Below, in pieces: positions 990 through 38,785 of a stretch of DNA of 64,000 nt. The translations under genes and the position numbers were made by a program. Origin of the DNA: Janthinobacterium rivuli (lineage in GTDB: Bacteria; Pseudomonadota; Gammaproteobacteria; Burkholderiales; Burkholderiaceae_D); NCBI RefSeq assembly GCF_029690045.1, contig NZ_CP121464.1:3782001-3846000 (forward strand), written 5' to 3'. The stretch's first letter is position 1. Each line of letters begins with the position of its first letter. The notes under the pieces are model-generated. The model did not search any database. It saw only the letters and a list, made by a program, of their open reading frames with translations, and had not been told where the DNA came from.

Positions 990-2333
990 TCAGCGGGCCA
1001 GCAAGCGTTTGAGCTGCGCCGCCTGGTAGGCGCCGATGGCGTCGTTGAACAGGCAGCGGATCAGCGGGTCGTCGACGATGTCGGCCTCGTCCAGTTCGTC
1101 CCGCGTGGCGGTGTCGAAAGGACCATCGTTGATGCGCATGTACATTGAGGTGAGCGATTCACCGAGCACCAGCGCCGCATGGCATTTCACCAGCGGCACC
1201 TCGGTGGTCCAGCCGGGCGCCTCGCCCGTGTCCGGCACGAGGTCGATCAAGTCGCCGTGCGTGCGGTAATGCAGGACCGTGGCCGCGCCGTCATGGCCGT
1301 ACAGCGACAGCCGCCACACACGCGGAGCCTGGAAATAGCTGTCTTCGGGCAGCTCCATGTCGCGGTAGCGTTCCAGCAAACCGTGGCGGCAGAAATCGAG
1401 CACCAAGGCCGCATCGGCGTCGCTCAATGACGCGAAACGGCGCGCGATGTCTGCCGTGGCGGGCGGCGGCGCGTCGGGGCGGTAGTCGAAATCCACGTCT
1501 TGCGGGCCCACGGGGATGACCCAGGGCAAGGGTTCGGCACTGCTCACACCGTGCGCGTCGAGCAGCACGGCCGTCGATGGATCGAGGCGGAAGATGTGCG
1601 CCTCGGGCAGCGCGGCGCCGATTTCATCGGCAAAGCGGCGATAGGTAACCGGGAACATCGCATGGTTGTACCAGGACCAGTCTTCCTGCACGAACTGGCA
1701 AGAGCTGGGCACGATGTACCGTGGCGCCAGCGCGCGCAGCTGCGGCACCCAGTCGTCGGGAAGGTCGACCGGGCCAGGTTGCGCCTGCGACGGCGCGATG
1801 ACGGCGATCTCGCGCATGGTCTGGAATGGCCACAGCACCATGTCCCACGGCGCAAAGGCGGCCAGCTGTTCGAGCGTCTCCGGCCCGATCCAGGAATCGA
1901 CCACGTTGAGCACATTCAGGCCGGCGGCGCGCACCTGGAACAGCGAGTCGACATCGTCATCGAGTGCGCGGCGCGGGATCACTTCGATGCTGCCCACCTG
2001 CACAGGCACGTCGACGTGCAGCCGCTCGACGCGGCTAAAACCCAGCGCGCGCAGCATGGCGAACAGTTCGTCGAAGACGCAGTACAGATAGATGGGCGTG
2101 GCGCGGTCCAGCACATCGAGGCTGTCGAGCGAGCAGTGGTCGTCGTGGAAGTGCGAGATGAAGACGGCATCCCAGCGCAGCTGGCGCACGGCGTCGAGGT
2201 CGAAGCGCACGGGCGGAAACGCGTGGCAATTGCGGCTGAACGGGTTTTCGACGATGGGGTCGAAGGCGATGGCCGTGCCTTCGCATTCGAAGACATAGCC
2301 GGCGTGCAGGATGCGGGAGATTTTCAGGGGCAT
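990..2333 (-). CDS. Metallo-beta-lactamase-fold hydrolase
   Basis: A 447-residue protein with the zinc-binding signature HFHDDH at residues 61-66, preceded by the beta-strand text DAVFISH typical of the MBL fold. The N-terminal pattern (ISRILHAGYVFECEGTAI) resembles UlaG/N-acyl-phosphatidylethanolamine-phospholipase-like members that act on small polar substrates, but the substrate cannot be read. Residues after about 300 form an extra alpha/beta region not typical of the minimal fold. The ATG at 2333 is preferred over an in-frame TTG 30 nt upstream, because the extra ten residues are proline-rich and the MPLKIS start fits the first beta strand. The gene lies downstream of hemB on the same strand, with a GGGGTC hairpin between them. 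Confidence 0.75.
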   Translation of the reverse strand: MPLKISRILHAGYVFECEGTAIAFDPIVENPFSRNCHAFPPVRFDLDAVRQLRWDAVFISHFHDDHCSLDSLDVLDRATPIYLYCVFDELFAMLRALGFSRVERLHVDVPVQVGSIEVIPRRALDDDVDSLFQVRAAGLNVLNVVDSWIGPETLEQLAAFAPWDMVLWPFQTMREIAVIAPSQAQPGPVDLPDDWVPQLRALAPRYIVPSSCQFVQEDWSWYNHAMFPVTYRRFADEIGAALPEAHIFRLDPSTAVLLDAHGVSSAEPLPWVIPVGPQDVDFDYRPDAPPPATADIARRFASLSDADAALVLDFCRHGLLERYRDMELPEDSYFQAPRVWRLSLYGHDGAATVLHYRTHGDLIDLVPDTGEAPGWTTEVPLVKCHAALVLGESLTSMYMRINDGPFDTATRDELDEADIVDDPLIRCLFNDAIGAYQAAQLKRLLAR

Positions 2334-2376
2334 GGGAGGCGGGGAATGCAGAAAGAACCCCAACAGCGTAAATGCT

Positions 2377-2403
2377 GGGGTCAGACCCGCCGGGTCTGAC
2401 CCC
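2377..2403. repeat. GGGGTC-type inverted repeat, copy 1
   Basis: A perfect 12-bp inverted repeat, GGGGTCAGACCC and GGGTCTGACCCC, separated by 3 nt. It lies 38 bp after the hemB stop. No T-run follows on the minus strand, so it may be an mRNA 3' hairpin or a mobile REP-like element rather than a classical terminator. Related copies are at 25064 and 43996. Confidence 0.9.
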
Positions 2404-2441
2404 GGAATTTGCTTTCGGGGTGAGAAAAACGCCGGGAATGC

Positions 2442-3416
2442 TCAATACGGATTATTCAGCACATCCATCGCAAAATACGTAAAGATCATGTCCGCGCCCG
2501 CACGCTTGATGGCGCCCAGGGTTTCCTGCACCACGCGGCGCTCGTCGATGGCGCCCGCTTGCGCGGCGAACTTGATCATCGCATATTCGCCGCTGACCTG
2601 GTAAGCGCCGATCGGCAAACGCGTCACTTCGCGCAGGTCGCGGATGATGTCCAGATACGCGCCGGCCGGTTTGACCATCAGCGCGTCGGCGCCTTCGGCT
2701 TCGTCGATCAAGGACTCGCGCACGGCTTCGCGGCGGTTCATCGGATCCATCTGGTAGGTCTTGCGGTCGCCCTTCAGGGTGCTGCCGGCCGCGTCGCGGA
2801 ACGGGCCGTACAGGCCGGAGGCGAACTTGGTCGAATACGCCATCACGGGCGTGTCGTGGAAGCCGGCCGCATCTAACGCGCTGCGGATCGCCGCCACCTG
2901 GCCATCCATGGCGGCCGACGGCGCGATGATGTCGGCGCCCGCCTGGGCCGCGATGACGGCCTGCTTGCCCAGGTTGAGCACCGTGCTGTCATTGTCGACC
3001 GTGTCGCCATGCAGGATGCCGCAATGGCCGTGGTCCGTGTATTCGCAGAAGCAGGTGTCGGACATGACCACCATTTCCGGCACGGCGTCCTTGATGATGC
3101 GCGACATGCGGGCCACCAGGCCGTCCGGGTTCAGGGTGTCCGTGCCGTGGCTGTCCTTGTGGTGCGAAATGCCGAAGGTCATGACGGAGCGCAGGCCGGC
3201 GCGCGCGTAGCGCTCCACTTCCTGCGCCAGCTTCGCTTCGGGAATGCGGCGCACGCCGGGCATGGACTTGATGTCGATGAAATCGCTGGAACCTTCGTCG
3301 ACGAAGATCGGCAGGACCAGGTCGCGCGGATTGATTTCGGTTTCGCGGAACAGCTCGCGCAGTTGCGGGGTCGCGCGCAGGCGGCGCATGCGCGAAGTGG
3401 GGAATTGTGCTGGCAT
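2442..3416 (-). CDS. hemB: Delta-aminolevulinic acid dehydratase (porphobilinogen synthase)
   Basis: Condenses two 5-aminolevulinate molecules to porphobilinogen in tetrapyrrole (haem) synthesis. The 324-residue protein has both Schiff-base lysines in family context: Lys197 ([10 protein letters not shown]) and Lys249 ([10 protein letters not shown]). Cys122, Cys124 and Cys132 in [14 protein letters not shown] form the three-cysteine zinc site, so this is a zinc-dependent type rather than the cysteine-poor magnesium type. Length and start ([14 protein letters not shown]) are typical for betaproteobacteria. It appears to be transcribed alone or with the downstream MBL-fold gene. Confidence 0.97.
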
Positions 3417-11011: not shown

Positions 11012-12007
11012 CTATACCGGCTCGCGCCACTTGTCCTTGATCTCCAGCATGGCTGGCAGCTGTTCCACGAACAGCGCCAGCAGCTCCGGGTCGAAGTGCG
11101 TGCCGCTGTCGCGCTGCATGGTGGCGATGGCTTCGTCGATGGTCCAGGCGCGCTTGTACGGGCGTTCGCTGGTGAGGGCGTCGAAGACGTCGGCAATGGC
11201 GACGATGCGGCCTTCATGGGGGATTTCCTCGCCTTTCAAGCCTTGCGGATAGCCGCTGCCATCCCATTTCTCGTGGTGCGTCAGGGCGATGGTGCGCGCC
11301 ATTTTCAGCAGGCCGCTTGCGTGCTCGCCGATGATCGCCGCGCCGATTTCCGCGTGGCGGCGCATGACTTGCCATTCGTCCGCATCGAGCTTGCCCGGCT
11401 TTTGCAGGATGGCGTCGGGGATGCCGATCTTGCCCACGTCGTGCATGGGCGCCGCATTCAATAAATCTTCCGCCCTGGCCGCGCTGTAGCCGGCCGCCAG
11501 TGCCAGCTGGCGCGCGTAATAGCTCATGCGGATGACGTGCATGCCCGTCTCGTTGTCCTTGTATTCGGCCGCCTGGCCCAGGGTCTGGATCACCTGCAGG
11601 CGCGAGCGGCGCAATTCCTCGGCGTCCACCAGCGACAGATGCGTGCGCACGCGGGCGCGCACGATGGGCGGGCTGACGGGTTTCGTGATGTAGTCGACGG
11701 CGCCGGCATCAAAGCCGTCCGCCTCGTCCTTCACGTCGCACAGGGCCGTCACAAAAATGACGGGGATGGACGCGGTGGCCGGCATGGCCTTCAATTGCCG
11801 GCACACTTCATAGCCCGTCATGGCGGGCATCATGATGTCGAGCAGGATCAGTTCGACGGGATTGTTCTGCGCCAGCTCCAGCGCCTTCTCGCCATCCTTC
11901 GCATACAGCAGGCGGTAATCGTCCTGCAAAATCTGGCGCAGCACCTGCAGATTCGTCGCTTCATCGTCGACCAGCAGCAGGATCGGTTTGTCTTCGTGTA
12001 AGGTCAT
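11012..12007 (-). CDS. Response regulator with HD-GYP c-di-GMP phosphodiesterase domain
   Basis: A 331-residue protein: receiver domain (about 5-125; acidic DDE, phospho-acceptor in ELILLDIMMP, conserved Lys in DYITKPVS) followed by a full HD-GYP domain (about 145-325) with HDVGKIGIPD, HHEKWDGSGYP and RIVAIADVFDAL. HD-GYP domains hydrolyse c-di-GMP, so phosphorylation probably tunes second-messenger levels. The ATG at 12007 is chosen because the receiver starts directly after it; the open frame upstream runs into the preceding kinase gene. It starts 13 bp after the stop of the hybrid kinase at 12021, so the two form an operon and probably a cognate phosphorelay. Confidence 0.93.
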   Translation of the reverse strand: MTLHEDKPILLLVDDEATNLQVLRQILQDDYRLLYAKDGEKALELAQNNPVELILLDIMMPAMTGYEVCRQLKAMPATASIPVIFVTALCDVKDEADGFDAGAVDYITKPVSPPIVRARVRTHLSLVDAEELRRSRLQVIQTLGQAAEYKDNETGMHVIRMSYYARQLALAAGYSAARAEDLLNAAPMHDVGKIGIPDAILQKPGKLDADEWQVMRRHAEIGAAIIGEHASGLLKMARTIALTHHEKWDGSGYPQGLKGEEIPHEGRIVAIADVFDALTSERPYKRAWTIDEAIATMQRDSGTHFDPELLALFVEQLPAMLEIKDKWREPV

Positions 12008-30847: not shown

Positions 30848-32029
30848 TCAGTTCAAGGCGGCAGCCGGTCCGAAGAATTCATGGTGCGTCTGCTGTTCCG
30901 GCACGCCCAGTTCGCGCAGGTATTGCTTGACGGCCCGCATGAATGGCTGCGGTCCCAGGAAATAGGCATCGACGTCGCGCGAGGCCGGCAGCCAGTGATT
31001 CAATTGCTCTTTATTCAGCAAGCCGACGGCGTCCGGCGCGTCGTGTTCACCACCATGTTCCGCGTAGCAGTAAAAGCGCTGCAACTGCGGGTGCTGCGCG
31101 GCCAGCTCGTCGATCTGCGCGCGGAACGCGTGCACGCCGTGGTGGCGCGCCGCGTGGATGAAATGCACGGGACGCTTGCCGCGCAGGGCCTCCGTCAGCA
31201 TGGCCAGGGTCGGCGTGATGCCCACGCCGCCGCTGATCAGCACCAGCGGCTTGTCGCCATCGCGCAGCACGAAGTCGCCCGATGGCGGCGTCAGCTGCAC
31301 CGTGTCGCCTGCCTGCACATTATCGTGGAAGAATGTCGACACCTTGCCGCCCGCTTCGCGCTTGACGCTGATGCGGTAGGTCTGGCCATTGCTGGCGGCG
31401 GACAAGGAATACTGGCGGCGCATGGGCACGCCATCGACCGTGGCCACCACGCCGATGTACTGGCCTGGCGCAAAGTCAAGCACGGGCTGGCCATCGGCGG
31501 GCGCCAGCAGGAAGGAGGTGATCTCTTCGCTTTCCACCGTCTTGCTGCGCACTAAAAAGTCGCGCGCGCCGCTCCAGCCACCCGGCGCGGCCGCCTGCGC
31601 CTTGTAGATGCGCCCTTCTTCGCCCGCCAAAATATCTGCCAGCTGGCCATAAGCCGCGCCCCAGGCATCGATGACGGCGTCGCTGGCCACTTGTTCACCC
31701 AGCACTTCGCGGATCGCCTGCAGCAGGCTGGCACCGACCAGCGGATAGTGCTCGGCGCGGATCTGCAGGGCCACGTGTTTGTTGACGATGATCGATACGA
31801 GGTCACCGAGCGCATCGAGTTGATCGATATGTTTGGCATACATCAGCACGCCATTCGCCAGCGCGCGCTGCTGGTCGCCGCTGTGCTGGTGCGCCTGGTT
31901 AAAGTACGGCAGCACTTCCGGATGGTCGCGGAACAGATTCTTGTAGAAGTGGCGCGTCAGCGCTTCACCGCCCTGCTCGAGGATGGGGACGGTGGCCGTG
32001 ATGATGGCGCGTTGTTCTTGGGTCAGCAT
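30848..32029 (-). CDS. hmp: Flavohaemoglobin (nitric oxide dioxygenase)
   Basis: Detoxifies nitric oxide to nitrate using O2 and NAD(P)H. The 393-residue protein has an N-terminal globin domain with proximal His85 (VNKHVAL) and distal Tyr29 (HFYKNL), a FAD-binding domain (about 150-255; PMRRQYSLSAAS), and an NAD domain (LVLISGGVGITP). Length and layout match Hmp. It lies 32 bp after the hemerythrin gene, and a candidate NsrR operator is at the promoter of that gene, so the two would be induced together by NO. Confidence 0.97.
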   Translation of the reverse strand: MLTQEQRAIITATVPILEQGGEALTRHFYKNLFRDHPEVLPYFNQAHQHSGDQQRALANGVLMYAKHIDQLDALGDLVSIIVNKHVALQIRAEHYPLVGASLLQAIREVLGEQVASDAVIDAWGAAYGQLADILAGEEGRIYKAQAAAPGGWSGARDFLVRSKTVESEEITSFLLAPADGQPVLDFAPGQYIGVVATVDGVPMRRQYSLSAASNGQTYRISVKREAGGKVSTFFHDNVQAGDTVQLTPPSGDFVLRDGDKPLVLISGGVGITPTLAMLTEALRGKRPVHFIHAARHHGVHAFRAQIDELAAQHPQLQRFYCYAEHGGEHDAPDAVGLLNKEQLNHWLPASRDVDAYFLGPQPFMRAVKQYLRELGVPEQQTHHEFFGPAAALN

Positions 32030-32061
32030 GTGGAACTCCTGTGAGAATGTAAGTAATCGGT

Positions 32062-32475
32062 CTAGGCCAGCGTCTCTACGGCTGGATATAACTCATGGTC
32101 TTCGCGCCGCATGCGCTGGAACAGCGCGTGCAGGACGGTATTGGCTTCGCTGCGAAAGGCTTCGGGTTCCGCTTCCAGGCGCACTGGCGTATTCCAGCGG
32201 CCGGCGAAATCGAGGTAGGCGCCGGCGATGCCGTGCATTTCGTTTTCGTACTGGCGTCCCAGTTGTGCCACCTTGGCCACGCCGGACGCTTGCGCGGCCG
32301 GATACAGGTAGCGCTGCTCGACGGCCAGGTGCAGCTTGATCAAGCCGCTCATGGCGATGATCTGTTCGGCAATGGCCTGTGCCTGCGCGGCCACACCGCC
32401 GCGCGCCAACTGGCGCAAGTCGTCGATGGCGGCCAGGATGTCCAGGTGCTGCTGTTTGAATTTGTCGATATTCAT
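32062..32475 (-). CDS. Hemerythrin-domain protein
   Basis: A 137-residue four-helix protein of the hemerythrin/HHE family. Candidate diiron ligands: His10 (KQQHLD), His53 and Glu57 (KLHLAVEQRYL), His81 (NEMHGI) and His125-Glu (REDHELYP). Such proteins bind oxygen or NO, or repair iron-sulfur clusters, by analogy with YtfE/RIC, but this protein is shorter than YtfE and lacks its N-terminal domain. Operon with hmp, under a candidate NsrR site. A role in NO handling is inferred from context. Confidence 0.8.
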   Translation of the reverse strand: MNIDKFKQQHLDILAAIDDLRQLARGGVAAQAQAIAEQIIAMSGLIKLHLAVEQRYLYPAAQASGVAKVAQLGRQYENEMHGIAGAYLDFAGRWNTPVRLEAEPEAFRSEANTVLHALFQRMRREDHELYPAVETLA

Positions 32476-32502: not shown

Positions 32503-32531
32503 AGTGTAGCGGAATTCGCTTAAACATGCAA
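32503..32531 (-). promoter_or_regulatory. Candidate promoter of the hemerythrin-hmp operon
   Basis: On the minus strand TTGCAT (32531-32526) and TACACT (32508-32503) are separated by 17 bp. The -35 element is inside the candidate NsrR operator, so binding would block polymerase. Match to consensus is modest. Confidence 0.45.
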
Positions 32532-32542
32532 ATTACATGCAT
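32526..32542. promoter_or_regulatory. Candidate NsrR operator
   Basis: ATGCAAATTACATGCAT has the ATGYA-N7-TRCAT layout of NsrR sites (consensus with two inverted ATGCA half-sites). It is 50 bp upstream of the hemerythrin start and covers the -35 element of that operon. The gene for NsrR is about 4 kb away. The same 210-bp region also carries the upstream part of the divergent stressosome operon. Confidence 0.6.
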
Positions 32543-32688
32543 CTTTAAATGGCCAGTATTTCATACTGACATGGCCACTATGTGCGGCATGGAACACAAG
32601 CTGCGGCCATGTCTGCCTATAATTTCTTCATCACAGCGCGGGCCCGTTTGCGGCCGTGCCGCAACCCCCACTCCAGCCAAGGATGAGC

Positions 32689-33567
32689 ATGAAAAACAAG
32701 ACGGGCACAGGCCAGGCGCAGCAACTGGCCGGCATCATCAACGAGCACCACACGGAACTGCTGGACGGCTGGATGGCCGGCCTGATCGCCCGCCTGGTGC
32801 GGCGCGACAAGATCGCCGAAAACGAGCTGCGCCAGCAGGCATCGCAATTGCTGCCGCTGCTGGCGGGCGCGCTGGAAAGCGGCGACTCGTTCGATCTCGA
32901 AGGCGGCGCCTGGGACGATACGCGCCAGCTGCTCGCGGAAATATCGCAGTCGCGCGTGCGCCAGGGCTATTCGCCGATCGACACGGCCAGCTTCATGTTC
33001 GCCCTGAAGGAGCCGCTGTTCGGCTACCTGCGCAAGGCAATCACGGCGCAGCCGGAGCAGCTGGGCGACGCCATCGTCAGCACCAGCAAACTGTTCGACG
33101 AACTGGGCCTGCTGACCATCGCCATCTACCAGAAGGCGCGCGAACAGGTGATATTGCGCCAGCAGCAGGAATTGCTGGAGCTGTCCACGCCCGTGGTGCA
33201 GCTGTGGCAAAACGTGCTGGCCCTGCCCCTGATCGGCACGCTCGACAGCGCCCGCACGCAGGTGGTGATGGAAAGCCTGCTGCAAAAGATCGTCGACACG
33301 GGCGCCCTGATCGCCATCATCGACATCACGGGCGTGCCGACCGTCGACACCTTGGTGGCGCAGCACCTGCTGAAAACCATCGCCGCCGCGCGCCTGATGG
33401 GCGCCGACTGCATCATCAGCGGCATCCGCCCGCAGATCGCGCAAACCATCGTGCATCTGGGCGTCAACCTGGAAGACGTGATGACCAAGGCCACCCTGGC
33501 CGACGCCTTCGTCGTGGCCCTGAAACGCACGGGCTCCAGCATCACCTACCAGCAGCAACAACACTGA
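32689..33567 (+). CDS. rsbR: RsbR-like stressosome scaffold protein
   Basis: A 292-residue protein with an N-terminal helical globin-like sensor (about 1-165) and a C-terminal STAS domain (about 190-285). The STAS part follows Bacillus RsbRA closely: IDITGVPTVDT and IRPQIAQTIVHLG, so the RsbT-phosphorylated threonines (in ITGVPT and QTIV) are present. RsbR and RsbS form the large stressosome shell that traps RsbT until stress. The ATG at 32689 is chosen because AAGG lies 6 nt upstream; two further in-frame ATGs just before it are possible. It is the first gene of a six-gene cluster. No haem ligand can be assigned, so the stimulus is open. Confidence 0.9.
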   Translation: MKNKTGTGQAQQLAGIINEHHTELLDGWMAGLIARLVRRDKIAENELRQQASQLLPLLAGALESGDSFDLEGGAWDDTRQLLAEISQSRVRQGYSPIDTASFMFALKEPLFGYLRKAITAQPEQLGDAIVSTSKLFDELGLLTIAIYQKAREQVILRQQQELLELSTPVVQLWQNVLALPLIGTLDSARTQVVMESLLQKIVDTGALIAIIDITGVPTVDTLVAQHLLKTIAAARLMGADCIISGIRPQIAQTIVHLGVNLEDVMTKATLADAFVVALKRTGSSITYQQQQH

Positions 33568-33574
33568 GGCGCCT

Positions 33575-33937
33575 ATGGATAGAATCCCCATTTTACGCAT
33601 GGGCCGGCTGCTGCTGGTGACGATCCAGGTGGACATGCATGACCGCCTGGCGATGACCTTGCAGGACGACCTGACCACCCGCATCGTGACGGACCGCGCC
33701 ACGGGCGTGCTGATCGACATTTCCGCGCTCGACATCGTCGACTCCTTCATCGGCCGCATGATCAGCAACACGGCGGCGATGGCGAAGATCCTCGATGCGC
33801 ACACCGTCGTCGTCGGCATGCAGCCGGCCGTCGCCATCACCCTGGTGGAACTGGGCCTGACCCTGGAAGGCGTGAGCACGGCGCTCAACGTGGAACGGGG
33901 CATCAAGCTGCTGGAACGGGACGGCGCATGCGCATGA
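33575..33937 (+). CDS. rsbS: RsbS-like stressosome protein
   Basis: A 120-residue stand-alone STAS-domain protein. It matches Bacillus RsbS (LLLVTIQVDM at the start; DIVDSFIGRM; GMQPAVAITLVELGLTLEGVSTALNVERG). Ser57 in VDSFIG corresponds to the residue phosphorylated by RsbT to release it from the stressosome. The gene lies 7 bp after rsbR. Confidence 0.92.
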   Translation: MDRIPILRMGRLLLVTIQVDMHDRLAMTLQDDLTTRIVTDRATGVLIDISALDIVDSFIGRMISNTAAMAKILDAHTVVVGMQPAVAITLVELGLTLEGVSTALNVERGIKLLERDGACA

Positions 33938-33947
33938 CGGGGGCGCC

Positions 33948-34382
33948 ATGCTAGGCGCGCAGGCACAGGCAGGGGTGCAACAGGCGCAGCAGATCCTGCC
34001 CCTGCACAGCGACGAAGACGTCGTGCGGCTGCGCAAGCAGGTACGCGACAGCATGGTCGCCATGGGATTTGGCCTGATCGAACAGACCAAGATCATCACG
34101 GCGGCCAGCGAACTGGCGCGCAACACCCTGCGCTACGGCGGCGGCGGCGAAGCGCGCATCGCGCGCGTCTGCGATGGCGCGCGGCAGGGACTGGAACTGC
34201 GCTTTGTCGATGCGGGACCGGGCATCGACGATATCCCCCTGGCGCTGACCGATGGCTATACCAGCGGCGGCGGACTGGGACTGGGGCTGGGCGGCGCCAA
34301 GCGCCTGGCCGACGCATTTCACATCGACACGGCGCCCGGCGCGGGCACCACCGTCACCATCGCGAAATGGAAGCTGTTTTGA
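33948..34382 (+). CDS. rsbT: RsbT-like switch kinase
   Basis: A 144-residue GHKL (HATPase_c) protein. The N-box ASELARNTLRYGGGG, the Mg/ATP motif DAGPGIDD and the lid GGGLGLGLGGAKRLAD agree with RsbT, the serine/threonine kinase that phosphorylates RsbS and RsbR and is then released to act on a partner. In Bacillus the partner is the RsbU phosphatase, which is absent here. The gene overlaps the next by 16 bp. The N-terminal ten residues are Ala/Gln-rich and may be an extension. Confidence 0.9.
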   Translation: MLGAQAQAGVQQAQQILPLHSDEDVVRLRKQVRDSMVAMGFGLIEQTKIITAASELARNTLRYGGGGEARIARVCDGARQGLELRFVDAGPGIDDIPLALTDGYTSGGGLGLGLGGAKRLADAFHIDTAPGAGTTVTIAKWKLF

Positions 34383-35464
34383 ACCACATCGAGCAAGCCC
34401 CTGACATAGCCAGGCAACGCAGTTTTCCCATCAGCGAGCCGAGCGAGATCGCCGCGGCCCGGCGCGCCGGCAACGAACTGGCGCGGCGCATCGGCTTCGA
34501 CGACGTGCGCACGGGCCAGCTGGCCATCATCATCAGCGAAGCGGCGACCAACATCGTCAAGCATGCGCAACGCGGCGAGATCCTGCTGCGCAAGGTGCTG
34601 CGCGGCGGCACCAGCGGCATCGAGGTGCTGGCCATCGACAACGGCCCCGGCATGGGCAATGTACGCCAGCACATGGCCGATGGCCATTCCACCACGGGCA
34701 CCTACGGCGTGGGGTTGGGCGCGATACGCCGCCTGGGTCAGGAATTCGACCTGTACACGGCGCCCGGCAAGGGCACGGTGCTGATGGTGGTGGTCTGGGG
34801 ACAGCATGCCAGTAGCGCCATTCCCGCCCATCCGAACTGGCAGGTCGGCGCCGTGTGCCTGCCGCTGCCCTCGGAACAGGTGTGCGGCGACGCCTGGAAC
34901 GTGGTCTGCGAAGGCCATGAACTGAGCTTGCTGGTGGCCGATGGGCTGGGTCACGGCCCGCTGGCGGCGCGCGCCTCGGAACGCGCCAGCGCCTTGCTGG
35001 AAACTGACACACCCGGCTTGCCGCCCCTGCCCGCCCCCTTCATCGAACTGGCCCACGGCGCCCTGCGCACGACGCGCGGCGCGGCCCTGGCGGTGGCGCA
35101 CATCGACAGCGCGCGCCGCGAATTGCGCTTTGCGGGCGTAGGCAACATCGCCGCCTGCGCCTTCGATGCGCAGCAGCGCCGGCATCTGCTGTCGCATAAC
35201 GGCATCGTCGGCAGCAACCTGCGCAAGGTGCAGGAATTCTGCTATCCGTGGCAGCTGGGCGCGACCTTGATCATGCACTCGGACGGCTTGCACACGCGCT
35301 GGGACCTGGAACAGTATCCGGGCCTGGTGCATTGCCACCCCAGCCTCGTCGCCGCCGTGCTGTACCGCGATTTTGCGCGCGGGCGCGACGACGTCACGGT
35401 GGTGGTGCTGCGCGAACACGAGGAGCACCTGCCGGCCGGTACGGAAAGGAGCGAAACAACATGA
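34367..35464 (+). CDS. ATPase-PP2C fusion phosphatase (RsbX-like)
   Basis: A 365-residue protein with two parts. Residues 15-150 form a GHKL ATPase domain like RsbT/RsbW (SEAATNIVKHA, IDNGPGMG, GTYGVGLGAIRR). Residues about 165-355 form a SpoIIE/PP2C phosphatase domain (GDAWNVV, LLVADGLGHGP, GVGNIAAC, MHSDGLHTRW, GRDDVTVVVLR) whose metal-binding Asp residues look intact. RsbX in Bacillus resets the stressosome by dephosphorylating RsbR and RsbS but has only the phosphatase domain, so this fusion is notable. It overlaps rsbT by 16 bp and the next gene by 4 bp. Confidence 0.88.
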   Translation: MEAVLNHIEQAPDIARQRSFPISEPSEIAAARRAGNELARRIGFDDVRTGQLAIIISEAATNIVKHAQRGEILLRKVLRGGTSGIEVLAIDNGPGMGNVRQHMADGHSTTGTYGVGLGAIRRLGQEFDLYTAPGKGTVLMVVVWGQHASSAIPAHPNWQVGAVCLPLPSEQVCGDAWNVVCEGHELSLLVADGLGHGPLAARASERASALLETDTPGLPPLPAPFIELAHGALRTTRGAALAVAHIDSARRELRFAGVGNIAACAFDAQQRRHLLSHNGIVGSNLRKVQEFCYPWQLGATLIMHSDGLHTRWDLEQYPGLVHCHPSLVAAVLYRDFARGRDDVTVVVLREHEEHLPAGTERSETT

Positions 35465-37284
35465 CGCAACGCATATTGACGGCCCATATCGGCAGCGAAC
35501 TCGATGTGGTGGGAGCGCGCCAGCGCGCGCGCCAAATCGCCGCCCTGTGCGGCTTCGGCGTGCAGGACCAGGTGCGCATCGCCACGGCCGTGTCGGAACT
35601 GGCGCGCAACGTCTACAACTACGCCGGCAGCGGCAAGGTGCATTTCGCCATCGATGGCCAGACGGCGCCGCAGGTGCTCAGCATCCGCATCGAAGACCAG
35701 GGCCCCGGCATCGCGCAGCTCGACCGCATATTCGCCGGCACCTACCGCTCACCCACGGGCATGGGCCTGGGCATTCTGGGCGCCCAGCGCCTGATGGACC
35801 GCTGCCATATCCACAGCACGCCCGGCGACGGCACGCACATCACGCTGCACAAGCTGTTCCCGCGCGACGCTCCCCTGCTCGACGGCAGCATGATCGGCAC
35901 GCTGTCCGGCAGCCTGCAGGCGCTGCCATCGGATATCACGCTGTCCGAAGTGCAGCAGCAGAACCGCGAACTATTGACCACCCTGGCCGAACTGAAGACA
36001 CGCCAGGACGACCTGCTGCAACTGACGCGCGAACTGGAAGACACCAACCGTGGCGTGGTGGCGCTGTTCGCGGAACTCGACGAAAAAGCCGACCACCTGC
36101 GCCGCGCCGACCAGATGAAATCGCGCTTCCTGTCGAACATGAGCCATGAATTCCGCACGCCGCTCAGCTCCATCCGCGCCCTGTCCAAGCTGCTGCTCGA
36201 CCGCATCGACGGCGAGCTGTCCGAGGAGCAGGAAAAGCAGGTGCTGTTCATCCTGCAAAGCGCCGTCAGCCTGAGCGACCTGGTGAACGACCTGCTGGAC
36301 CTGGCCAAGATCGAGGCGGGCAAGGTCGACGTGCACGCCAACAGTTTTCAGGTGGCCGACCTGTTCAGCGCCCTGCGCGGCATGCTGCGTCCGCTGCTGG
36401 TGTCCGAATCGCTCACCCTGACCTTCATCGATCCCGACCCGGCGCTGCATATCCATACGGACGAAGGCAAGCTGTCGCAAATCCTGCGCAACTTCATCGC
36501 CAACGCCCTGAAGTTCACGGAAGCGGGCGCCATCATCGTCAGCGCCACGAGCTTGCCGGAGCAGGATGCCATCCGCTTTTCCGTCTCCGACACGGGCCTG
36601 GGCATCGCCGCCGAAGACGTGCAGCTGATCTTCGAGGAATTCAGCCAGGTGGAAAACCACATGCAGCGCAAGGTCAAGGGCACGGGCCTGGGCCTGCCCC
36701 TGTGCCGCAACCTGGCCACCCTGCTCAATGGCACGGTGAGCGTGGAAAGCACGCCTGGCGAGGGCTCGCTGTTTTCCGTCGTCCTGCCCACCAGCTACCA
36801 TGCGCCCGAAGGCAGCCTGCCGCCCAGCGCGCCGGCCAACGACAATGGCAACGACCAGCGCATCGGCGTGCTGGTGGTGGAAGACAATCCGCCCGTGCGC
36901 CTGCTGTATGAAAAATTTTTGGCCGGCAGCGAATTTCGCGTCGTTCCCGCGCGCAGCGTGCGCGAGGCGCAGGAGCGCTGGGAACAGCAGCGTCCCGCCG
37001 CCGTCATCCTCGACATCATGCTGCACGGCGAAACGGCCTGGCACTGGCTGGCCGAGCTGAAAAACGACCCGCTGCGGCGCCAGGTGCCCGTCATCGTCGC
37101 CACCGAAATCGACGACGTGCGCAAGGGCCTGGCCCTGGGCGCCGACGCCTACTACGTCAAGCCGCTGTCGCGCCAGCAATTGCTGGCGACCCTGCGCGCG
37201 CTGATCGGCAATACACACCACCGGCAAGAGCCGGTTCCGCCGCAAGGCACAACCACCTGGGACAATGCGCATGCTACCGGATAA
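35461..37284 (+). CDS. Hybrid histidine kinase with N-terminal RsbT-like ATPase domain
   Basis: A 607-residue soluble protein without membrane helices. Order: an RsbT-like HATPase domain (about 1-135: AVSELARNVYNYAGSG, IEDQGPGIAQ, GMGLGILGAQRLMDR); a coiled-coil region (about 160-220, QQNRELLTTLAELKTRQDDL); HisKA with acceptor His229 in NMSHEFRTPLSS; the kinase HATPase (NFIANALKFTEAG ... GTGLGLPLCRNL); and a receiver (about 465-585, AVILDIMLHG, Lys in YYVKPLS). The start is fixed by overlap with the preceding stop and by the RsbT-like domain starting at once. It is a direct candidate for linking the stressosome to phosphorelay output. Confidence 0.9.
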   Translation: MTQRILTAHIGSELDVVGARQRARQIAALCGFGVQDQVRIATAVSELARNVYNYAGSGKVHFAIDGQTAPQVLSIRIEDQGPGIAQLDRIFAGTYRSPTGMGLGILGAQRLMDRCHIHSTPGDGTHITLHKLFPRDAPLLDGSMIGTLSGSLQALPSDITLSEVQQQNRELLTTLAELKTRQDDLLQLTRELEDTNRGVVALFAELDEKADHLRRADQMKSRFLSNMSHEFRTPLSSIRALSKLLLDRIDGELSEEQEKQVLFILQSAVSLSDLVNDLLDLAKIEAGKVDVHANSFQVADLFSALRGMLRPLLVSESLTLTFIDPDPALHIHTDEGKLSQILRNFIANALKFTEAGAIIVSATSLPEQDAIRFSVSDTGLGIAAEDVQLIFEEFSQVENHMQRKVKGTGLGLPLCRNLATLLNGTVSVESTPGEGSLFSVVLPTSYHAPEGSLPPSAPANDNGNDQRIGVLVVEDNPPVRLLYEKFLAGSEFRVVPARSVREAQERWEQQRPAAVILDIMLHGETAWHWLAELKNDPLRRQVPVIVATEIDDVRKGLALGADAYYVKPLSRQQLLATLRALIGNTHHRQEPVPPQGTTTWDNAHATG

Positions 37285-38785
37285 CAACAGCGATGCTCTG
37301 ATCCTGAACGTCGATGACAGCGATGGCGCACGCTACGCCAAGTCGCGCATCCTCAAACGCGCCGGCTTCAAGGTCATCGAAGCCTCGAACGGAGGCGACG
37401 CGCTGCTGCGCGCCCGCCAGGACCGCCCGAACCTGATCCTCCTCGACGTCAAGCTGCCCGACATCAACGGCCTGGAAGTGTGCCGCCAATTGAAGGGCGG
37501 CGCCGAGACCAACACCATCCTGGTGCTGCAGACGTCCGCTTCCTGCATCGGCTCGGCCGACAAGATCCGCGCCCTCGATGGCGGCGCCGACAACTACCTG
37601 GTCGAGCCGATCGAGGCCGATGAACTGATCGCCAACGTCAAGGCGCTGCTGCGCCTGGGCCGCGTGGAGCGCGCGCTGCGCGACGTGGACCGCCGCAAGG
37701 ATGAATTCCTGGCCACCCTGGCGCACGAATTGCGCAACCCGCTGGGCCCCATCCGCACGGCGCTGGCCCTGCTGTGCAAGCTCGACCCCGTCGTGCCGGC
37801 CGTGCAGGACAATGCGCGCCGCACCATCGGCCGCCACACGGACCACCTGGTGCGCCTGGTGGACGACCTGCTTGACGTGTCGCGCATCTCGCAGGGCAAG
37901 ATCTCGCTGCAATGGGAAAGCGTGAGCCTGGCCAGCGTCATCCGCAGCGCGCTGGAGACGAGTTCGCACAGCGTCGAAGCGCGCGGCCATGCGCTGGACG
38001 TGAACCTGCCCAAGGAAGAACTGTGGGTCTGCGGCGACGCCGTGCGCCTGTCGCAGATCGTCGCCAACCTGCTGCTCAACGCGGCCAAGTTCACGGCGCC
38101 GGGCGGGCGCATCGCCATCACCGCCGCGCGCGAAGGCGACAATGTGCGCATCCGCCTCAGCGACAACGGCATCGGCATCGCCGCCGCCAATATCGACAGC
38201 ATCTTCGGCCTGTTCGAGCAAAGCGGCCACTCGCCCGACCGGGTGCAGGACGGCCTGGGCATCGGCCTGTCGCTGGTGCGCAATCTGGTGACCTTGCACG
38301 GCGGCCAGGTCAGCGTGCACAGCCCCGGCGTGGGACTGGGCAGCACCTTCGAAGTCATCCTGCCGCTCGACGCCAACCTGCCGCAGCCGGCCGCGCCGGT
38401 GCCGGAAGCGGCCACCGGCGGCAGCCAGCGCATCCTCGTCGTCGACGACAACTGCGATGCGGCCGACACCCTGGCCGAACTGCTGGAAATGTACGGCCAC
38501 ACGGTGCGCACGGCCTACACGGGCACGCAAGCGACCGAGCGCACCCTGGAATTCAAGCCCGACATCGTCTTTCTCGACATCGGCCTGCCCGACATGAGCG
38601 GCTACGACGTGGCCGTCAAAATGCGCCAGCTGCCGATACCGCAGCAATTCCTGCTCGTCGCGCTGACCGGCTATGGCCAGGAACACGACCGGCAGGCGGC
38701 CCTGGCGTCGGGTTTCAATGAACACTTTGCCAAACCCGTCGATTTCGGCAAGCTGGCCATGCTGGGATTGCATATCGCGCCCTGA
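37271..38785 (+). CDS. REC-histidine kinase-REC hybrid
   Basis: A 504-residue soluble protein: a receiver (Asp59 in LILLDVKLPD), HisKA with acceptor His152 in LAHELRNPLGP, HATPase (NLLLNAAKFTAPGG ... GLGIGLSLVRNL) and a second receiver near the C-terminus (VFLDIGLPDMSG, Lys in HFAKPVD). It overlaps the preceding kinase by about 14 bp. The second ATG (37271), 8 nt after GGGA, is preferred. No output domain is present, so the final target of the relay lies elsewhere. Together with its neighbours it forms the phosphorelay part of the stressosome cluster. Confidence 0.9.
   Translation: MLPDNNSDALILNVDDSDGARYAKSRILKRAGFKVIEASNGGDALLRARQDRPNLILLDVKLPDINGLEVCRQLKGGAETNTILVLQTSASCIGSADKIRALDGGADNYLVEPIEADELIANVKALLRLGRVERALRDVDRRKDEFLATLAHELRNPLGPIRTALALLCKLDPVVPAVQDNARRTIGRHTDHLVRLVDDLLDVSRISQGKISLQWESVSLASVIRSALETSSHSVEARGHALDVNLPKEELWVCGDAVRLSQIVANLLLNAAKFTAPGGRIAITAAREGDNVRIRLSDNGIGIAAANIDSIFGLFEQSGHSPDRVQDGLGIGLSLVRNLVTLHGGQVSVHSPGVGLGSTFEVILPLDANLPQPAAPVPEAATGGSQRILVVDDNCDAADTLAELLEMYGHTVRTAYTGTQATERTLEFKPDIVFLDIGLPDMSGYDVAVKMRQLPIPQQFLLVALTGYGQEHDRQAALASGFNEHFAKPVDFGKLAMLGLHIAP

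Follow-up and report, generated by a model that had tools for sequence, protein, structure and literature searches.

A sigma-factor-free stressosome operon of Janthinobacterium with an RsbT-like domain as possible stressosome input of a hybrid histidine kinase

The stretch of DNA analysed here (the window, 64,000 nucleotides of Janthinobacterium rivuli) harbours an rsbRST-phosphatase-kinase-kinase operon of six genes, all on the + strand. In our main reading, which has about an even chance of being correct, this is a sigma-free stressosome operon with a phosphorelay as output, in which an RsbT-like N-terminal domain of kinase 1, termed KN, replaces RsbU_N as stressosome input. This reading is based on gene content, domain composition, conservation, the occurrence of KN and RsbU_N in the same place, and loss of the KN ATP site while its helix-1 face is kept. 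That KN binds RsbT or the core of RsbR and RsbS is inferred, as are the direction of regulation, the route of the phosphate and the final target. An RsbT-like domain in cis on a kinase would represent a concrete and testable stressosome output route in a culturable genus and, if true, KN could serve as sequence tag for finding further stressosome outputs. More generally, it is tentatively proposed, with slightly less confidence than the main reading itself, that RsbT has become a modular input of histidine kinases, in many cases without catalytic activity, giving a further output route beside RsbU_N. At the level of titles and abstracts, no RsbT-kinase fusion was found in the literature, where earlier mention in reviews is possible.

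Successive genes of the operon are separated by 7 and 10 bases and then overlap by 16, 4 and 20 bases (Table 1), and the six co-directional genes with short gaps or overlaps described in an initial annotation of this DNA are thus found with this spacing. As genes 4 and 5 both open with a HATPase_c_2 domain, each possesses a further RsbT-like N-terminal domain (T' and KN, respectively). The product of gene 4, previously regarded as RsbX-like phosphatase, does contain the PP2C domain, but this is preceded by an RsbT-like ATPase domain, which rules out a plain RsbX. Likewise, the 607-residue protein is a soluble hybrid kinase, having the HisKA histidine, the N and G boxes of the ATPase domain and a receiver, but its RsbT-like N-terminal domain (residues 16-130) had been overlooked. 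Instead of the four phospho-acceptor domains counted before, Pfam gives five, namely two HisKA domains and three receivers. No DNA-binding domain was found by Pfam in the six proteins, and a promoter and terminator scan performed no better than on shuffled sequence.

Table 1 Features of the stressosome operon and its upstream region, in window coordinates
Feature	Position	Strand	Pfam domains	Description
RsbR	32689..33567	+	RsbRD_N, STAS	RsbRD_N sensor domain and STAS domain, both conserved Thr (Pfam, alignment)
RsbS	33575..33937	+	STAS	STAS domain with Ser57 (Pfam, alignment)
RsbT	33948..34382	+	HATPase	free switch-kinase homologue, ATP motifs intact; R19, R23 and D92 equivalents kept
T'-X	34367..35464	+	HATPase_c_2, SpoIIE phosphatase	RsbT-like ATPase domain (aa 24-141) and SpoIIE/PP2C phosphatase (aa 183-349)
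KN	35461..35862	+	HATPase_c_2	N-terminal, RsbT-like part of kinase 1 (aa 1-134)
Predicted continuous helix of kinase 1 (aa 160-246)	35938..36198	+		conserved linker into HisKA domain
Kinase 1 (607 aa)	35461..37284	+	HATPase_c_2, HisKA, HATPase_c, REC	KN - helix - HisKA - HATPase_c - REC
Kinase 2 (506 aa)	37265..38785	+	REC, HisKA, HATPase_c, REC	REC - HisKA - HATPase_c - REC
NsrR-like palindrome	32523..32545	none		divergent hemerythrin/rsbR intergenic region

Within the family, an RsbS query matched 51 of 145 genomes (in G004 the match falls in RsbR), and neighbourhoods were taken from all 51, window included, together with three extra RsbR places. RsbS of at least 80% identity is encoded in 44 loci including the window, all of which contain R, S, T and T'-X. 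The order R-S-T-[T'-X]-[KN-kinase]-kinase is present in all 43 loci reaching that far, while the contig of the 44th ends inside X; kinase 2 is found as two ORF pieces in L033, and in L039 the order is the same once an over-long ORF is discounted. KN and linker are kept in 43/43 complete loci. The remaining seven loci differ, comprising L054-L057 from one genus (L055 is cut after S), the RSTX loci L058 and L059, and L060. A KN profile matched the same 51 genomes, with at most 28 candidates scored per genome, and its matches in the seven differing loci are RsbT-type domains and not KN-kinases. Conservation of the kinases beside rsbRST in relatives had been suggested as a check, with rare adjacency as the outcome that would speak against a link; with the kinases in place in all 43 complete loci, window included, the coupling of stressosome and phosphorelay is therefore well supported by context.

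The RST core itself comprises, by sequence, RsbR with sensor domain and STAS domain carrying its Thr residues, RsbS with its Ser, and RsbT with intact ATP motifs, confirming that the residues for RST switching are present. Ser57 of RsbS and the two Thr of RsbR align with identical residues in four relatives from Bacillales and are kept in 44/44 family loci. By their sequence context, they are taken to be S59, T171 and T205 of B. subtilis. These B. subtilis residue numbers appear in the available text of PMC3944199. Free RsbT retains the ATP-motif Asn and the equivalents of R19, R23 and D92 in all 44 loci.

Regarding the output, nine sigma factor matches were obtained in the host genome (a single contig of 6.33 Mb), none above the SigBFG cut-off; the six strongest correspond to two RpoD, RpoS, RpoH and two FliA-type factors, and the three weakest have E-values of 4.5e-5 to 3.1e-4. 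RsbU_N gave zero matches genome-wide, and neither RsbV nor RsbW was seen in the operon. Hence, the operon shares RsbR, RsbS, RsbT and a PP2C phosphatase with the RsbRSTUVW-SigB operon of B. subtilis, but is devoid of RsbU_N, RsbV/W and SigB. The absence of RsbU and SigB put forward in the initial annotation thus stands, but it is not unusual and was rejected as the surprise of this operon, being already in print: the accessible part of PMC9237108 confines the operon with SigB to Bacillales and presents the four-gene rsbRSTX module as widespread. RST modules near two-component genes are equally known, as had been stated, and such modules with two-component genes in place of SigB are in print (available text of PMC9237108 and PMC10014275). 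One of these, rsbRSTX with VvD1/VvD2 of Vibrio vulnificus, likewise combines a stressosome with subsequent two-component genes and lacks SigB and RsbU, but according to the excerpts of both sources VvRsbR senses through a haem globin domain, RsbX is a phosphatase of a single domain and VvD1 contains PAS and no RsbU_N. This comparison relies on the description of VvD1, which in these excerpts makes no mention of an RsbT-like domain. For VvRsbT and the downstream kinase VvD1, the one tested pair, no detectable binding is given in the available text of PMC9237108, where one survey also found most downstream proteins to be without RsbT receptor. Histidine kinases bearing RsbU_N have been described as well (available text of PMC9237108 and PMC12143880); they share with kinase 1 the location downstream of X, solubility and a HisKA core. 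Kinase 1 of the window differs in having an RsbT-like domain instead of RsbU_N and is not of the RsbU_N type.

For a comparison of KN and RsbU_N, proteins were chosen from the loci taken and represent a subset of those in existence. Among 369 genomes of the class, with about a dozen candidates scored per genome, 14 had an RsbS-profile match at 1e-12 (some only RsbR STAS) and ten a KN-profile match at 1e-10. All ten are among these 14; their matches are mostly free RsbT, and only G000 and G455 showed KN-kinases. An RsbT profile matched 35 of 299 phylum genomes, of which 20 provided places, and a wider contig scan yielded at least 80 loci, mostly RSTX or SigB-type operons. From stressosome loci without N-terminal T'-X fusion, 24 proteins following X were run through Pfam. 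RsbU_N was matched at E<=0.01 in 19 of them, 13 above the Pfam cut-off (L054, L056-L059, L066-L070, L080, L088, L095, L099, L113, L117, L123, L128 and L155). The other five (L072, L073, L172, L176 and L177) gave neither RsbU_N nor KN, so there are inputs other than these two domains. Two of the 24 stand apart, since X of L095 bears a C-terminal RsbT-like domain and X and kinase of L073 form one protein. In loci with N-terminal T'-X fusion, RsbU_N was found in 0/13 kinases; eight of these carry KN (window, L064 and L160-L165, with L165 low-scoring and on a long branch) and five carry neither domain (L060, L166-L169). In L173, also a T'-X locus, the next protein is PAS-GGDEF-EAL. Additionally, in L058 (4561-7158, - strand) and L059 (6352-8979, + strand), RSTX is followed by a PAS-GAF-GGDEF-EAL protein with a weak RsbU_N match, and a c-di-GMP output in the same family is possible.

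The properties of KN itself point to binding. Arg residues R19 and R23 of RsbT are implicated in RsbU binding, and D92 is highlighted in an RsbT-RsbU model (available text of PMC12143880). With positions checked on a Bacillus RsbT of 133 aa having R19, R23, N24 and D92, both Arg equivalents are present in 43/43 operonic KNs, and the D92 position is Asp in 1/43, with two gaps. Of five KNs from outside the family, three have R at the second position, one has K and one H. The ATP motifs are present in the window copy, and their Asn is kept in 31 and lost in 12 of the 43 operonic KNs; of these 12, ten have also lost the DxG motif, and in none does more than one of the three glycines in the second motif remain. 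Mean pairwise identity of the 12 Asn-less KNs is 0.70 for residues 4-33, 0.78 for 34-52, only 0.30 for the ATP region 53-106 and 0.50 for 107-134, compared to 0.63, 0.77, 0.59 and 0.62 for 24 intact KNs (window and L011-L016 left out). The helix 161-226 has a mean identity of 0.83 and 0.82 in the two sets, and the kinase His box is intact in 12/12 Asn-less copies. Counts over 52 kinase rows show the N and G boxes; no receiver was detected in 20 of the 43 family copies of kinase 1. On a tree of 43 operonic kinase cores the Asn state changes twice and on one of 53 cores including orphans three times, i.e. at least three changes, where three could include a regain. As the ATP site is repeatedly lost while helix-1 face and kinase core are conserved, KN looks, from its sequence, like a binding domain (input) and not an enzyme. 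An input domain is also favoured over an enzyme because the face that corresponds to RsbU binding is conserved, the ATP face is dispensable and the place of RsbU_N is taken.

An AlphaFold2 model of kinase 1 (mean pLDDT 82.7, pTM 0.44) shows a folded KN region followed by the continuous helix, with domain placement unsure given the low pTM. Searching solved structures by phmmer gave two weak EnvZ matches only for KN and none for RsbT, while the 50 entries listed by Foldseek for whole kinase 1 are all of histidine-kinase type. Among named relatives, proteins of Janthinobacterium are nearest to kinase 1. KN (residues 1-150) matches 4215 protein clusters at E<=0.001; the best 120 were inspected, and other ATPase domains may be among the remainder.

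In a tree of 136 RsbT-like and RsbW domains, which is based on few columns and has many inner forks open, six RsbW split off (support 100) and KN falls on the RsbT side. A KN clade of 19 (support 95) has members from several families, with no supported position for KN of L061 or of L163-L165, and RsbT of the window groups weakly (support 81) with other first RsbTs. An RsbT profile (three KN rows included) found three places in the host genome, with 14 of 61 candidates scored, all of them in the operon, namely KN, RsbT and T'. The idea that KN is the operon's own RsbT relocated onto the kinase was discarded, as free RsbT is present in 44/44 loci and T, T' and KN group separately. In a tree of 80 kinase cores, the KN-bearing kinase 1 cores and six KN-less ones form one clade of 25 (support 99), located inside a clade of 36 (support 96) which takes in, among others, the RsbU_N kinases of L069/L070. 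KN is attached to at least four different kinase cores, i.e. that of kinase 1, another in L161 and L162, a third in L061/L062 and a HisKA_2-type core in L165, and single genomes can carry several KN-kinases.

According to the main reading, RsbR and RsbS would, by homology, form the sensory core with RsbT as switch kinase, and T'-X would probably reset this core as RsbX does, with an RsbT-like domain added. KN would occupy the place held in many other stressosome-linked proteins by RsbU_N, the RsbT receptor, and bind via its helix-1 face, the face which RsbT uses for its effector. As first choice, RsbT released under stress would change the long helix between KN and HisKA and thereby switch autophosphorylation of kinase 1; alternatively, release of KN itself from the stressosome could change this helix. 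Phosphate would then be relayed via the receivers of both kinases to a response regulator whose gene lies elsewhere. Candidate partners of KN are free RsbT, T', the RsbR-RsbS core and its own helix.

Free RsbT released from the stressosome, the route inferred in the initial annotation, might also bind the helix or core of kinase 1 directly and activate it, KN being incidental, which is considered unlikely; KN would provide a more specific route. Such direct action would agree with the retention of the R19, R23 and D92 equivalents in free RsbT, with the modelling of RsbT on the RsbU linker, for which genetic support is given (available text of PMC12143880), and with kinases of the same operon type that do without KN. 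The latter are found in L166-L171, which have the same operon, an orthologous kinase core without KN and a similar linker motif; no RsbU_N was detected in the four of these six run through Pfam. Hence, KN is not always needed, and for these six operons the simplest idea is that free RsbT acts directly on the kinase as such. Conservation of KN and linker throughout the complete family loci and placement of KN on other cores are, however, hard to explain if KN is incidental.

About equally improbable on its own terms is that KN acts as a stressosome client, by which kinase 1 is held on RsbR/RsbS and released under stress; this is a version of the main claim, and the chances of both overlap. It fits with KN being an RsbT paralogue, with the shared set of 51 genomes matched by RsbS query and KN profile, and with two genomes in which an extra KN-kinase lies divergent to an isolated RsbR gene, S, T and X being absent from the vicinity. 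These two belong to ten family genomes with an extra KN-kinase elsewhere (L061, L062, L180-L187), all ten of which also have the operon; an RsbR gene is adjacent in 2/10 and not in 8/10 of these orphan loci, one contig being just 4.4 kb. On the other hand, docking models (available text of PMC9237128) set the ATP site of RsbT at the STAS target Ser, and this region is lost in 12/43 KNs, which renders the partner of the conserved KN face uncertain. That KN is an active Ser/Thr kinase on RsbS/RsbR or on receivers, as a second RsbT enzyme in cis, agrees with the Asn retained in the window and most other operonic KNs but is very improbable, since the ATP site has repeatedly been lost from an otherwise retained protein. 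Points against the main reading are the KN-less operons L166-L171, the five of 24 proteins with neither KN nor RsbU_N, the eight of ten orphans without RsbR, the single Asp at the D92 position among 43 KNs and the lack of detectable VvRsbT binding to VvD1.

The cores of the orphan kinases constitute one side of a branch (support 100). In 10/10 genomes with orphan, the ATP Asn is present in one kind of KN and missing from the other: Asn is lost in the operonic KN in seven genomes and in the orphan KN in three (in G133 in both tandem orphan KNs). Three of the seven Asn-keeping orphans (L061, L062 and L184) have a changed second glycine motif. This distribution hints at active/dead pairs that may work together; due to shared ancestry, the ten genomes are not independent, and in six further genomes, where no orphan was detected, the operonic KN lacks Asn. 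The two tandem KN-kinases of L187 (4616-7646, + strand) are strongly degenerate, and one of them is broken up into separate ORFs; they look to be decaying.

In all 44 family loci, the PP2C phosphatase is joined to an RsbT-like domain, distinguishing it from a single-domain RsbX; T'-X is likely an RsbX with added kinase-like domain. T' keeps the ATP-motif Asn in 44/44 family loci as well as the R19 equivalent, and the R23 equivalent in none, and in the domain tree it clusters with the free second RsbT of L069/L070, in a group comprising 35 rows (support 92). The phosphatase of L095 (6351-7352, + strand), from a Myxococcales MAG, has its RsbT-like domain at the C-terminal and not the N-terminal end. 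A different small module with [T'-X] before RsbR occurs in L074-L076, L078, L079 and L174, with a possible small STAS protein in some and no free RsbT or kinase among the matches listed. The only other SpoIIE phosphatase match in the genome, ORF 1446-2753 (+ strand) of L009 (G000:C1, about 4463872), also matches the SiaB family kinase and is likely a fused SiaA-SiaB-type partner switch.

Divergent to rsbR, the window encodes a hemerythrin and an NO-inducible flavohaemoprotein (Hmp) at 30848-32475 (- strand). This Hmp-hemerythrin pair is found in 8/8 loci of the genus Janthinobacterium and in 0/36 other family loci. The NsrR-like palindrome (Table 1) agrees in 19 of 23 positions with an NsrR consensus, compared to a maximum of 15 in 20 shuffles of the window stretch; all eight Janthinobacterium loci score 18-19. 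It is a genus-level feature which may or may not belong to the operon. With pair and palindrome conserved in the genus, NO stress may be linked to the stressosome there. Control by NO/Hmp was not kept as part of the system, since the pair is restricted to these eight loci. In L024 (about 11600-11830), from another genus, an Hmp-like gene is nevertheless located upstream of the operon, accompanied by two NsrR-like sites with 20 and 19 of 23 positions matching this consensus.
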